DNA from: an uncultured Chlorobiaceae bacterium
Lineage (GTDB): Bacteria > Bacteroidota > Chlorobiia > Chlorobiales > Chlorobiaceae
DNA: 43,406 bases
Direction of reading: 5' to 3'
Assembly (NCBI GenBank): GCA_903887845.1
Contig: CAISRC010000025.1
Coordinates: forward strand, 1 to 43,406
Within the stretch, counting starts at the first letter, position 1; the number at the start of each line of letters is the position of its first letter. The notes under the pieces are model-generated. The model did no database searches, was not told where the DNA came from, and saw only the letters and a list, made by a program, of their open reading frames with translations. The position numbers were made by a program, and so were the translations under genes. Shown here one piece after another: positions 17,505 to 43,115 of this stretch.

Positions 17505-18747
17505 TATTGCAAATTTGGTTAGAGGGTACAATGGGTTTTAAGAACAGAGTCAGGGCAATTTTCTTTTTTGTTTTCCTGGCCGGTTTTGATGCAACAAGTT
17601 CATGCTTTTTCGACTTCCGGCTGTTCTTTTGATCAGCGATCACCTGCTTCTTCGTCTTGCTGCTGTTCTTCTGCCCGGCAATTTCCTGCTTCTTCGACTT
17701 GCTGCTGTTCTTCTGCCCGGCAATTACCTGCTTCTTCGTCTTGCTGCTGTTCTTCTGCCCGGCAATTTCCTGCTTCTTCGACTTGCAGCTGCTCTTCTGC
17801 CCGGCAATTTCCTGCTTCTTCGACTTATGAATTGCTGTTGCCGGAGCAAATGTTTCTGATCGACTTTGTGCCTGAGCAACAAGACGCCCGGAAAGAGCTG
17901 ATTCGGGATTTAGTACTCGGTTAGTAAATGCCATGTCGAACAAGTTCGCAGCAACATTCCATCGGTCGGTTTTAGCATTCAGCATCACGAGGAGAATATC
18001 CTTGTCATCTTTTATCGCTCTGGCAATCAAACACCCGCCAGCCCTGGTTGTATAACCGGTCTTGATACCAACAGCATAAGGATATTTATCAAGAAGCTTG
18101 TTGTGTGTTCTCAGACAATATACTTTATGAGTCGTCTGCTCCATAAAAACGGCTTTCTCAAGGCGGGCGACCTGGTTAAACACGGGATTCTTTACTGCAT
18201 ATTCCGTAAGCCGTAAAAGATCCTCTGCTGTCGATATATTGCCCGCATAAATGCCTTTATCAAAACCGGCCGGGTTGGTAAACCGGGAATTTTTCATTCC
18301 AATCATCTTTGCCTTATAGTTCATGGAGGCAACAAACGAATCAATATTACCTGAAAGATATATCGCTATGGCAAATGCCGCATCGTTGCTTGAATTGACC
18401 ATAGCCGCCTTAACAAGATCGACAAGCTTGATTTTATCACCCTGTCTAAATCCTGCTTTAGAGGGCTCAACCATCGTCGACTCTTTTGTAATAAGCACAT
18501 CCTGATCCATTCGGCCACTTTCAATCGCCATGATACAGGTTAGTATCTTGGTCAGACTGGCCGGAGAAACTGGTCTGTCGATATCTTTGGCCATCAATAC
18601 TTTGGAACTTCCTGTTTCCTTGACGATATAGGAGTTTATTTGAACCTGAGACTGTAGTGAATCATCTCTTGTTTGCGCATGCAGGAAGAGAGGAACGATC
18701 ATGGCCGTAATGACGACAAGAACAGCGATGAGCGTTGATTTTTGCAT
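17473..18747 (-). CDS. D-alanyl-D-alanine carboxypeptidase (S11) with repeat tail
   Basis: Low-molecular-weight penicillin-binding protein that trims the terminal D-Ala from peptidoglycan stem peptides in the periplasm. With the ATG at 18747 (424 aa) it starts with a signal peptide (MQKSTLIAVLVVITAM, cleavage near LHA-Q at 24). Active-site motifs: SLTK (S64-K67), SSN (119-121) and KTG (229-231). The PBP5-type C-terminal domain is missing. From residue 308 it has five tandem 14-residue lysine-rich units (KSKKQEIAGQKNSS type), a degenerate sixth and a basic end. The tail has no amphipathic anchor of the PBP5 kind; a strongly cationic tail could bind teichoic-like, nucleic or lipopolysaccharide anions (inference). 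The upstream in-frame extension to 18831 is basic and unlikely. Confidence 0.92.
   Translation of the reverse strand: MQKSTLIAVLVVITAMIVPLFLHAQTRDDSLQSQVQINSYIVKETGSSKVLMAKDIDRPVSPASLTKILTCIMAIESGRMDQDVLITKESTMVEPSKAGFRQGDKIKLVDLVKAAMVNSSNDAAFAIAIYLSGNIDSFVASMNYKAKMIGMKNSRFTNPAGFDKGIYAGNISTAEDLLRLTEYAVKNPVFNQVARLEKAVFMEQTTHKVYCLRTHNKLLDKYPYAVGIKTGYTTRAGGCLIARAIKDDKDILLVMLNAKTDRWNVAANLFDMAFTNRVLNPESALSGRLVAQAQSRSETFAPATAIHKSKKQEIAGQKSSCKSKKQEIAGQKNSSKTKKQVIAGQKNSSKSKKQEIAGQKNSSKTKKQVIADQKNSRKSKKHELVASKPARKTKKKIALTLFLKPIVPSNQICNNDQAYRDVAA
17617..17826 (-). repeat. Five 42-bp tandem repeats inside the carboxypeptidase gene
   Basis: Units at 17826-17785, 17784-17743, 17742-17701, 17700-17659 and 17658-17617, each encoding 14 residues. 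Units 2 and 4 encode the same S...E form, units 3 and 5 a T...V form, so the array also shows an 84-bp higher-order period. A degenerate sixth copy (17616-17575) and a partial seventh follow. In-frame unit number changes would lengthen or shorten the tail without a frameshift. Confidence 0.95.
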
Positions 18748-39642: not shown

Positions 39643-39746
39643 TGAGGGGGGAGAATTGGAAAGTATTTGCATCCTTGCATAGGGAGTGGCAGGATAACTT
39701 GAAACAAACCATTGATGAGAATATGCCTGAAATAGCCAGAGCATGA
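39642..39746 (+). CDS. 34-codon ORF bridging proA and DUF2442 gene
   Basis: ATG overlaps the proA stop (TGATG) and its TGA overlaps the next ATG (ATGA). The product is charged (starts [19 protein letters not shown]). GGGGGG just inside the frame and GAGG near the start may act as ribosome binding site for what follows. Either a tiny real gene, a remnant of a partner gene that often accompanies DUF2442, or chance; no family match. Confidence 0.25.
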   Translation: MRGENWKVFASLHREWQDNLKQTIDENMPEIARA

Positions 39747-39994
39747 TGAATCATCCAAAAATCATAAGCGCAACAGCAATTGATGATCATTCACTTCGCG
39801 TTGAATTCGATAATCATCAAAGGAAAACCTATGAGATTAACCCCTTGCTTGAGAAGGAGATGTTTGCTCCGTTGAGCAATGCAGCATTGTTCAGAGCGGT
39901 AAGAGTGGATGCGGGTGGCTACGCGGTTGTTTGGCGGAAGGATATCGATATTAGTGAGCATGAGTTGTGGGTTCATGGAAAGACAATATCATAA
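39743..39994 (+). CDS. DUF2442 protein
   Basis: An 83-residue protein of the DUF2442 family: KIISATAIDDHSLRVEFDNH at the start, then the TYEINPLLEKEMFAPL block, and YAVVWRKDIDISEHELWVHG at the end. DUF2442 genes often lie next to DUF4160 genes in toxin-antitoxin-like pairs; no intact DUF4160 gene is present here. Function unknown. It marks the start of the accessory strip after proBA. Confidence 0.82.
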   Translation: MMNHPKIISATAIDDHSLRVEFDNHQRKTYEINPLLEKEMFAPLSNAALFRAVRVDAGGYAVVWRKDIDISEHELWVHGKTIS

Positions 39995-40137
39995 TTGTCA
40001 TGGGTACAGGTTTTGAGAACTGAAAAATTCGTATACTACGCTGTTCTTTCAATAATACAGGACGATTTACCCCAAAGAACAAGAGAATATCATAAACCGT
40101 TACGCTGAAAAGCACCAGCAGACAGAGGAAAAACAGC

Positions 40138-40356
40138 ATGACCACATTGCTCACCAAGGCATTTAAAACTGCAGAAAACCTCCCAGAGGTAGAGCAGAAC
40201 GCATTGGCAAAATGGCTTCTTGACGAGCTCCATTCTGAAGCGAAATGGCAAAAAACGTTTGCAGAATCGGAAGACATTCTTGAGATGCTCGCCGATGAGG
40301 CACTGGAAGAGAAACGAAAAGGCAAGACGACTCCCCTTGACCATAGTCGCCTGTGA
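40138..40356 (+). CDS. Antitoxin of a ParE/RelE-type pair
   Basis: A 72-residue acidic, helical protein: LPEVEQNALAKWLLDEL, then a DILEMLADEALEE stretch and a short basic end (KRKGKTT). The helix-rich layout and size fit the small antitoxins that precede RelE/ParE toxins, although the DNA-binding type is not clear. GAGG lies eight bases before the ATG. Its TGA overlaps the GTG start of the toxin (GTGA), the usual coupling of such modules. Confidence 0.75.
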   Translation: MTTLLTKAFKTAENLPEVEQNALAKWLLDELHSEAKWQKTFAESEDILEMLADEALEEKRKGKTTPLDHSRL

Positions 40357-40631
40357 AATCCCTGACAAATGAACGCTTCTGGAAGTACTATGCCGACCTG
40401 CCTCATGAAACCAGGCGACAGGCGAGAATAGCTTACGCTCTCTTTGAGCAAAACCCATACTATCCGAGCCTTCATTTCAAACGCATCCACTCAACACGAC
40501 CAATTTTTTCAGCCCGAATTAACATGGACTATCGAGCTGTATGCATAATGGAGGACGACGAAATCACCTGGTTCTGGATTGGTTCTCATGCTGACTACAA
40601 CAACCTGCTGAAACGACTGAAAAAAGCCTAA
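40353..40631 (+). CDS. ParE/RelE-superfamily toxin
   Basis: A 92-residue basic protein with the RelE/ParE fold pattern. It has NERFWKYYADLPHETRRQAR at the start, LHFKRIHSTRPIFSARIN in the middle (substrate-side basic strand), then DYRAVCIMEDDEITWFWIGS and HADYNNLLKRL at the end. The HADYNNLL terminus is common in this group. Start codon GTG at 40353. RelE-type members cleave mRNA on the ribosome and ParE-type members poison gyrase; the sequence alone does not decide. No mobile element borders the pair. Confidence 0.82.
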   Translation: MKSLTNERFWKYYADLPHETRRQARIAYALFEQNPYYPSLHFKRIHSTRPIFSARINMDYRAVCIMEDDEITWFWIGSHADYNNLLKRLKKA

Positions 40632-40649
40632 CAAGAGGAAATGCCGTTC

Positions 40650-40952
40650 CAAAAAAAATTGCGAGGAGTGCATTAATTCGGAAACTTCCAAGCCATCGGA
40701 TTCATCTATACCCTGCCCGTTTTCCGGCAGAGTTCCCGAGATTTTTAACAGAATTTTCGACGAACCCCTGCGATTTGGTGATTGATCCATTTGCGATCAC
40801 AACACCTCTGGATAGGTCGCTGATGGCCTGAAGCGACAATGCGTGGGGGTAGGACTCAGAAGCGACATGCCGAGGAGAGCAAATTACGCTTTGAGGGTGT
40901 GCCGGAAGAGGTTATTTTGAGTCAAGACCAACAGTCTCTGCAATTTGAATGA
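40650..40952 (+). pseudogene. Decayed DNA methyltransferase, C-terminal remnant
   Basis: Three frames in succession give one recognisable protein end. Frame A (40650-40795): RKLPSHRIHLYPARFPAEFP and RFLTEF, then DLVIDPFA, the motif I start of an N4/N6-type DNA methyltransferase. Frame B (40795-40866): NTSG, an in-frame TAG at 40813-40815, then VADGLKRQCVGVGLRSDM, the continuation of motif I and the acidic strand after it. Frame C (40869-40952): AEESKLRFEGVPEEVILS to a TGA. At least two frameshifts and one stop make it non-functional. Motif I at the C-terminus is the order seen in beta-class enzymes; everything upstream (catalytic motif IV) has been lost or replaced by the toxin-antitoxin pair. 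Confidence 0.75.
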
Positions 40953-41002
40953 ATGTCAGCGCATTGGAGCTATTTTTGGGGTAAATGTGAGTAAAAATAA
41001 CT

Positions 41003-41368
41003 TTGAAAAACTTGTTGAATTTAAGCAAATACCCATTTGAAATTCGTCCCCTCTCAAAAGAAGAGGGTGGTGGTTATATGATTTCATTTACTGACTTTTC
41101 TGAATGTATTTCAGATGGCGAAACAATAGCGGCAGCAATTGAAAATGGCATGGATGCCTTACAGGAAACAATAGCTGCCCTGGAAAGCTTGAACATTCCT
41201 GTTCCAGAACCAGGTAGTGGCGGCACGTATAGTGGCAGGTTTATTCAAAGGGTTCCTGAAAGCATTCATTCCCGTTTGGTTATGAGAGCAAAACAAGAGA
41301 GCGTCAGCATGAACTCTCTTGTAACATCCATGTTGGCAGAGAGCTTGGGAAAACGCGAAACGGTGTAA
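41003..41368 (+). CDS. HicB-family antitoxin-like protein, orphan
   Basis: A 121-residue HicB-type protein: N-terminal partial RNase-H-like fold (YPFEIRPLSKEEGGGYMISF, FSECISDGETIAAAIENG) and a C-terminal ribbon-helix-helix (VPESIHSRLVMRAKQESVSM, NSLVTSMLAESL) for DNA binding. HicB normally neutralises the RNase HicA encoded beside it. No HicA gene is found in the 370 bp upstream (which holds the methylase remnant) or in the 52 bp downstream. Start is TTG at 41003; no ATG precedes the conserved part. Possibly a free-standing regulator. Confidence 0.82.
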   Translation: MKNLLNLSKYPFEIRPLSKEEGGGYMISFTDFSECISDGETIAAAIENGMDALQETIAALESLNIPVPEPGSGGTYSGRFIQRVPESIHSRLVMRAKQESVSMNSLVTSMLAESLGKRETV

Positions 41369-41420
41369 TAAAAATTGACGACGTATTAGTAGAAAACAGC
41401 AAAACCAGACCAAAGGAATA

Positions 41421-42146
41421 ATGCTCATAGCAAAAAATATCAGCAAGTCATACACCATACCGGGCAAACGCACCATACAGATCCTTCGCGGGGTCGATCT
41501 GACCATCGGTGAAGGTGAGATGGTGACCATCATCGGAGCCTCGGGAAGCGGCAAAACAACCTTGCTGAACCTGCTCGGCACCCTCGACACCCCAGACAGT
41601 GGCGAGATCATGTTCGACAAACAGCTTTTGTTCAAGGATACCAAATACACCCTCTCCCAAAAAGCGCTTGCCAGGTTCAGGAACCAGAAAATAGGTTTCG
41701 TCTTTCAGTTCCACCACCTCCTCTCCGACTTCACCGCCCTCGAAAATGTAGCAATGCCCGAATTCATCGCCACCAGCAAACTACCGCCAGCAAAAAAAAG
41801 GGCTGCTGAGCTGCTTGAAAGCCTGGGCCTCTCGGAGCGGCTCGACCACCTCCCATCAGAGCTCTCCGGCGGGGAACAGCAACGAGTCGCCATTGCCCGA
41901 GCCCTAATGAACAACCCTAAACTGGTGCTTGCCGACGAACCAAGCGGTAACCTCGACAACCAGAACAGCGGCATCCTCTATGAGCTGATGGCAAAGCTGA
42001 GCAAAGAGCGACGCACCTCCTTCATTATCGTCACCCATAACGAAGAGTATGCCGCCCTCGCCGACCGCTGCCTGCGCATGGCGGATGGGCATTTGCATCC
42101 CAGCCTTAGCTTAACTCTCCAACAACATTCTCGCAAATGTCATTAA
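41421..42146 (+). CDS. lolD: LolD-type lipoprotein-releasing ABC transporter ATPase
   Basis: ATP-binding subunit driving lipoprotein extraction from the inner membrane by LolCDE. 241 residues with Walker A GASGSGKT (about 39-46), the LolD/MacB-type [18 protein letters not shown] (Q-loop region), signature LSGGEQQR, Walker [13 protein letters not shown] and H-loop VTHN. AAAGGA lies before the ATG. No lolC/lolE permease gene is adjacent; related MacB/FtsE-type ATPases are the alternative, but the [12 protein letters not shown] segment favours LolD. The last 12 codons overlap the convergent patatin gene by 36 bp. Confidence 0.9.
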
Positions 42147-43115
42147 TTGATCTTCCGAATCATGAGCCAACGTTTGGCCTGCTTTCTCCAATGCACTCAT
42201 ATTACCTTTTGAAGCATTATCCATTTCGCTGTCTACACCCGGAAAATCCTTGAAGTCAAGCTGCAGCCTCAGGTATTGAGAGGAACATCCTGCGCTTTTA
42301 AAGAGCTGTTGCAGTTGAAAATCGACAGTTTCTGAAACACCTGACATCATAATATCAAGCACAGGAATAGCCCAGGAAATTTTCCCCCAGTTTTTTGCTT
42401 CAGAATACTGATAAGGCTTCTCAACATTTCCCGTACCAAGTGAAAGCACTTTCAGATCAGTCAATTTCAAATCCGGGCGAAGGCTGAACGCTTCAATGCA
42501 GGCACACATGGTCGGGTTGTTCGCAAAAACTCCACCATCAATAAGTGGATAGACTTCGTGGTCACTGGCTGAAATATTTGCAGGTTCAAAATAGGTCGGT
42601 GCTGCAGAGGTCGCTCGTGCAACATCACGAAGATAAAAGTCCCATCCACTCCCATTTTTATCAACATTGGCACCGTTGAAAAAGTGGGCCTGACGTCGGG
42701 TTATATCATAAGCTGTAATCAGACAGGGTTTACAAAGATCGCTTAACTTTAAATCGCCAAGGTAATTTGTCAACACTTTTTCAATGGCATCTGCTGAGTA
42801 TTTTTCGTCACTAAATCCCGCAAGAGATTGAAAACGCCTGGCAGTTGGAAGATCAAAAATCTTGCTCCCGTCCTGCAGATACATGCCTACAGCCTCTTTT
42901 GCGGAATATTTTGGCCTGCCGCTCTTCTTGTCAGGACAAAGATAGAGACAAGTAAGGATACCGCCTGTGCTGGTTCCTGCAATCAAATCAAACGCATCGG
43001 CAATACGCATGTCTGGCTTTCCTGAAATTTCCTTTAACTTCTGTTCAAGTACAACCAGTACTTCTCCGGGAATTATCCCTCGGATACCACCACCGTCAAT
43101 AGAGAGAATTCGCAT
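42111..43115 (-). CDS. Patatin-like phospholipase
   Basis: A 334-residue patatin-domain lipid acyl hydrolase. Ser-Asp dyad: nucleophile S49 in GTSTG and D193 in DGG; oxyanion loop DGGGIRG (7-13). SAAPTYFEPA (170-179) is also typical. No signal peptide, so cytosolic. It resembles stand-alone bacterial patatins, including the type used as CBASS effector (CapV), but no CD-NTase, E1/E2 or JAB gene is next to it in the window. The upstream region (43116-43192) has two GTTATAA copies in an AT-rich stretch and may hold its promoter. Tail-to-tail with lolD. Confidence 0.9.
   Translation of the reverse strand: MRILSIDGGGIRGIIPGEVLVVLEQKLKEISGKPDMRIADAFDLIAGTSTGGILTCLYLCPDKKSGRPKYSAKEAVGMYLQDGSKIFDLPTARRFQSLAGFSDEKYSADAIEKVLTNYLGDLKLSDLCKPCLITAYDITRRQAHFFNGANVDKNGSGWDFYLRDVARATSAAPTYFEPANISASDHEVYPLIDGGVFANNPTMCACIEAFSLRPDLKLTDLKVLSLGTGNVEKPYQYSEAKNWGKISWAIPVLDIMMSGVSETVDFQLQQLFKSAGCSSQYLRLQLDFKDFPGVDSEMDNASKGNMSALEKAGQTLAHDSEDQLMTFARMLLES

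Follow-up and report, generated by a model that had tools for sequence, protein, structure and literature searches.

The stretch between a ParE-like toxin gene and an orphan hicB gene is very probably a scar left by a Type II restriction-modification (R-M) operon of two genes, a statement that covers both its relic nature and its origin. It lies in a Chlorobiaceae contig analysed here over its whole length of 43,406 nucleotides (the window), which is one complete contig (C25) of a 2.65-Mb genome in 144 contigs (G000), 98.8% complete according to the tool's estimate. The window ProA displayed 68-97% identity to ProA proteins of the same genus. The scar and its surroundings are composed as follows:

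40138-40356, forward strand: intact antitoxin-like small gene of a toxin-antitoxin (TA) pair, 72 aa, no Pfam family
40353-40631, forward strand: intact ParE-like toxin gene, 92 aa (Pfam ParE_like, E=5.9e-14)
40656-40706, forward strand: 3' remnant (codons ~130-144) of a 177-aa partner gene, a putative PD-(D/E)XK restriction endonuclease
40704-40711, forward strand: deletion junction between the end of the partner remnant and the start of the methyltransferase remnant, identical in G078 (L083)
40707-40952, forward strand: degenerate 3' quarter (codons ~230-310; motifs X, I and II) of an M.PvuII-family N4-cytosine methyltransferase gene
40794-40800, forward strand: frameshift near 40797, in the DPFAGSNTTG (motif I) region, placed by alignment with intact copies
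40813-40815, forward strand: in-frame TAG nonsense codon
40866-40870, forward strand: second frameshift, near 40868, placed by alignment with intact copies
40953-40978, forward strand: native 3' flank of the methyltransferase gene, followed by a second junction to hicB (the L027 match reaches 40978, that of G078 reaches 40965)
41003-41368, forward strand: orphan hicB, 121 aa, hicA missing (Pfam HicB, E=7e-9)

Methyltransferase peptides are spread over three forward frames and, on reading the frames of 40500-41100, all those quoted in the initial annotation for the C-terminal end of the enzyme were recovered. The stitched three-frame peptide matched Pfam N6_N4_Mtase (E=1e-6, 29.3 bits, above the curated cut-off of 26.7), and the first frame of the remnant alone gave E=1.5e-4; close homologues of the stitched peptide occurred in six genomes of the same genus (67-78% protein identity). 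Comparison with the relatives' intact gene, a check already suggested, gave 78-90% DNA identity between 40707-40956 and the 3' end of intact methyltransferase genes of the genus, with an alignment score of 380 against 34 for the best shuffle. The native stop is the TGA at 40950-40952. The 5' three quarters of the gene are absent from the window. Intact homologues have a catalytic SPPY motif and a target-recognition region; with both deleted, the remnant could not be an enzyme even before its later lesions. A search of the own genome for the missing parts recovered no intact methyltransferase or partner gene elsewhere. G000:C90 (L105:11891-12748) encodes an intact N6_N4 methyltransferase of a different type (285 aa, 35% identity), whose gene adjoins those of a DUF4143 ATPase and a BipA/TypA-like GTPase. 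The earlier proposal of a lost second R-M system was retained as to the loss but not as to the word second, since no further R-M gene appeared when ten of the larger window proteins were scanned against Pfam.

Intact counterparts were found in relatives, where a 177-aa gene lies directly upstream of a 310-aa methyltransferase gene, with a 17-bp overlap in most loci. Within the genus such pairs occurred in G002, G013, G023, G027, G085 and G063, mostly at or beside the proA-lolD locus. When 84,980 species genomes were scanned, the 177-aa gene appeared in 17 loci, and at every one of them the methyltransferase was adjacent, overlapping or nearly so; pair-bearing MAGs were labelled Chlorobiaceae, Nitrospira, Geothrix, Acidobacteria, Betaproteobacteria, Competibacteraceae and Lentisphaeria, among others. 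The intact methyltransferase matched M.PvuII (1boo) with E=3.6e-102 over residues 6-292, target-recognition region aligned, a full-length match that places it among the M.PvuII-family N4-cytosine (beta-class) methyltransferases.

Among 16 partner sequences, E40, E79 and K81 were invariant (an E79-x-K81 pattern) and D65 was nearly so, the sole exception being that of L028, whose own methyltransferase is broken. A Methanothrix plasmid and a Dolichospermum phage (cyanophage) carry distant homologues (29-30% identity), also beside M.PvuII-family methyltransferases (52-55% identity), and the phage protein passed the Pfam PDDEXK_5 cut-off. The Chlorobiaceae 177-aa protein gave no Pfam match above cut-off and no credible match to solved structures in sequence and profile comparisons with PDB chains, R.PvuII included. 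A fold search with its AlphaFold model (pLDDT 87) returned no significant match, PvuII and EcoRV appearing at ranks 16-22 with E~0.7. Judging by linkage and motif, not by fold or assay, the 177-aa protein is very probably a restriction enzyme, referred to here as putative. On sequence grounds, the intact relatives represent an uncharacterised R-M family that associates an M.PvuII-type methyltransferase with a putative non-PvuII nuclease.

In the PvuII system, the M gene diverges from the C and R genes. The present pairs resemble PvuII R-M (M.PvuII, PDB 1boo; R.PvuII, PDB 2pvi) in their methyltransferase, whose full length, including the target-recognition region, is of the M.PvuII family, and a CAGCTG target would agree with the site depletion described below. 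They differ from it in the putative partner nuclease, from another, uncharacterised PD-(D/E)XK-like family, and in their organization, where R is upstream of M, overlapping, on one strand and with no C regulator. The window system further differs in being dead.

The partner gene also left a trace in the window. Positions 40670-40706 (ALIRKLPSHRIH) match the 3' part of this gene (ALVRELPGHRNH) with 81-89% DNA identity (81% over 37 bp to L030, 89% over 28 bp to L029), a score reached by none of 2000 dinucleotide shuffles. This part of the remnant is certain and 40656-40669 is weak. The stretch from ~40656 to 40706 had previously been read as methyltransferase, an assignment that was rejected since the sequence matches the partner gene instead; the restriction-enzyme remnant that was to be looked for was thus located, as a putative one, inside the same feature. 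Past ~40707 the sequence is that of the methyltransferase from codon ~230. The alignments indicate that a single internal deletion fused the remainders of the nuclease and methyltransferase genes, removing the last ~30 codons of the former and the first ~230 of the latter. A few bases are common to both sides of the junction, which makes the exact breakpoint ambiguous.

CAGCTG is the recognition site of the prototype PvuII. The own genome contains 33 such sites in 2.65 Mb, ~20-fold below expectation, and the window a single one (17786-17791) versus 11 expected. In a 421-kb sample of the genome, 7 sites were counted where a Markov model predicted 136.5 (ratio 0.05); every other palindrome with an expected count above 1 had a higher observed/expected ratio. 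Within the genus, counts were nearly bimodal, with less than 40 sites per Mb in 25 of the 59 genomes of the proBA tree. Depletion was observed in 16 of the 17 same-genus genomes having an intact, broken or relic M.PvuII-like methyltransferase; the only undepleted carrier, G063, has its pair away from the hotspot, as expected for a recent gain. Outside the main clade, G027 displayed 18 CAGCTG per Mb with the pair and its sisters ~200 without it. Site depletion makes CAGCTG the most likely specificity of the intact pair, still a putative one, and we infer, less firmly than the relic itself, that the depletion is a footprint of the lost pair's activity.

A real relic would also be compatible with a depletion caused by another CAGCTG-directed system, past or present, or by mutational bias, and this is a serious possibility, if short of an even chance. 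The clade commonly carries a second family of M.PvuII-like methyltransferases, encoded next to a ~490-aa repeat protein (L074, L072, L015 and L017, from G010, G028, G014 and G024), and the target-recognition region of this family is closer to M.PvuII than that of the pair methyltransferase. The repeat protein precedes the methyltransferase and displays no obvious nuclease motif; together they are possibly an unusual PvuII-type system. This family may share responsibility for the CAGCTG footprint, perhaps equally. CATATG (3 observed, 47.5 expected) and CCGCGG (7 and 35.5) were depleted too in the 421-kb sample, and CTAG was rare, which hints at other past or present R-M systems. Nine depleted genomes of the tree gave no methyltransferase match, several depleted genomes have neither family, and depletion was largely confined to a single clade, with G027 and G075 in addition. 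An independent-pairs test that set depletion against the presence of a methyltransferase was not significant and, with only 4-5 pairs, underpowered. Against another cause stand the depletion of nearly all carriers and the contrast between G027 and its sisters. Moreover, no member of the second family was found in the own genome, and the R.PvuII family (Pfam PF09225) gave no match there or in the genus, in a search whose positive controls also failed, so that its absence is not proven. Strong as it looks, but dominated by one clade, the association of methyltransferase presence with depletion is graded as suggestive because independent pairs are too few. In the literature searched, nothing was found on palindrome avoidance in Chlorobium, or on R-M combined with defence.

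The relic of the R-M operon could further be placed in an order of decay. The two frameshifts and the stop to which the initial annotation ascribed inactivation were all found, but the breakage began with the deletion. Over 1412 bp, genome G078 from another species aligns collinearly with the window (93% identity); it shares the deletion junction and keeps an open frame from there through the native stop, which establishes that the deletion came first and is real, not an assembly error. The frameshifts and the stop arose afterwards, in the window lineage only. The window remnant has 15 private substitutions, distributed 7/5/3 over codon positions and mostly nonsynonymous (13 of 15, with 2 synonymous); the intact G027 methyltransferase copy displayed 5/1/18. 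The three lesions and the missing third-position bias denote relaxed selection. All 15 substitutions fall within the first 162 bp (40707-40868) and none in the last 88 (40869-40956). The TA genes directly upstream share 98-99% identity with G078, and proA only 93%. Together with the clustered substitutions, these identities make a mosaic or a recent exchange around the relic possible. Other routes of decay of the same R-M system were recorded in G003, where the partner nuclease gene is lost and the methyltransferase frameshifted, and in G019, where the methyltransferase is broken.

A sequencing or assembly error, with a methyltransferase still intact in the living organism, is very improbable: the draft state of the genome (144 contigs) and the clustering of private substitutions would fit it, yet 15 such substitutions are unlike typical assembly noise, other long window genes are open, the 5' three quarters of the gene are missing, and the same junction occurs in the assembly of another species. 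Such an error is excluded for the deletion and merely unlikely for the frameshifts and the stop. Domestication of the fragment as a small gene (e.g. for an RNA, or for a fragment that binds DNA or SAM) is equally improbable, since the fused G078 frame, although open from junction to native stop, has no ATG, GTG or TTG start ahead of it, the catalytic motif and target-recognition region are gone, and the window copy, with its three lesions and no third-position bias, displays no constraint.

The location between a TA pair and an orphan HicB had been correctly described: the ParE-like pair is upstream, and hicB without hicA downstream. The usual ATG of the window hicB is replaced, the best candidate start being a TTG with a small N-terminal extension; complete hicA and hicB pairs are present in L026 and L031. 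In the window, the TA pair, the relic and hicB all lie between proA and lolD. Of 51 genus genomes, 32 have these two conserved genes separated by 7-17 bp; in the other 19 the distance is 0.3-18.9 kb. Inserts at this site comprise Septu-like PtuA/PtuB, DUF2442, ParE-like and other TA pairs, hicAB, an SF1 helicase and the R-M pair; in G002, G027 and G085 the latter occurred just past lolD rather than between proA and lolD. The window insert (1.78 kb, interval 39643-41420) is one state of this cargo hotspot, which resembles defence-island hotspots in its variable cargo (R-M, Septu-like PtuA/PtuB, SF1 helicase and TA pairs) between two conserved genes and in the empty sites of relatives. No description of the proA-lolD site of the genus was found in the literature searched.

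Several other genes of this kind were recorded. Septu-like PtuA (AAA ATPase) and PtuB (HNH) occurred at the hotspot in L026:6505-8528, L027:1944-3967 and L028:10712-12765, and not in the window. In L028:3130-8952, by the R-M pair, a 1534-aa SF1 helicase-type protein adjoins a 387-aa SduA/DUF4263-like protein, in a region with weak matches to several defence families. On the minus strand of the window, 42111-43115 encodes a patatin-like phospholipase that matches CBASS phospholipase effector models (E=4e-71); no cyclase was identified near it in the short stretch up to the contig end.

The proposed history would start with an operon in which a 177-aa restriction enzyme gene overlapped a 310-aa methyltransferase gene by 17 bp, with CAGCTG as probable target; between proA and lolD, it would have been surrounded by mobile defence and toxin-antitoxin cargo. 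A single deletion would then have taken the last part of the nuclease gene together with the first ~230 methyltransferase codons, ending both activities together, and such simultaneous loss would have avoided the lethal state of a nuclease without protection. The leftover, no longer under selection, would subsequently have gained its two frameshifts and stop in the window lineage. More speculatively, and with considerable doubt, the loss of a long-resident CAGCTG system might be readable as a clock, from intact pair to in-frame scar (G078), decayed scar (window) and disappearance of the scar, with CAGCTG refilling from ~5-20 to 85-200 and then at least 300 per Mb.

Lost R-M systems leave traces, in that recognition sites remain avoided after the loss (Rusinov et al. 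2015, PMC4687349). Here, as in the cases of that study, the site is depleted in a genome from which the system itself is gone, while relatives still encode it; unlike them, a physical relic persists in the same genome, and a sister species shows it at an earlier stage of decay. Both the loss of R-M systems and persistent site avoidance are known phenomena, of which the window relic is a well-resolved further case.

The sequence of steps by which an R-M system dies is rarely observed. Here, one deletion that knocked out both genes, an in-frame sister copy and a genome-wide shortage of the probable target site occur together, so that site avoidance can be linked to a relic physically present in the same genome. 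If the low CAGCTG count of the window outlasts the neutral expectation after loss, an unrecognised CAGCTG-directed activity would still be acting in the clade. The intact pairs of its relatives constitute an R-M family open to laboratory testing.
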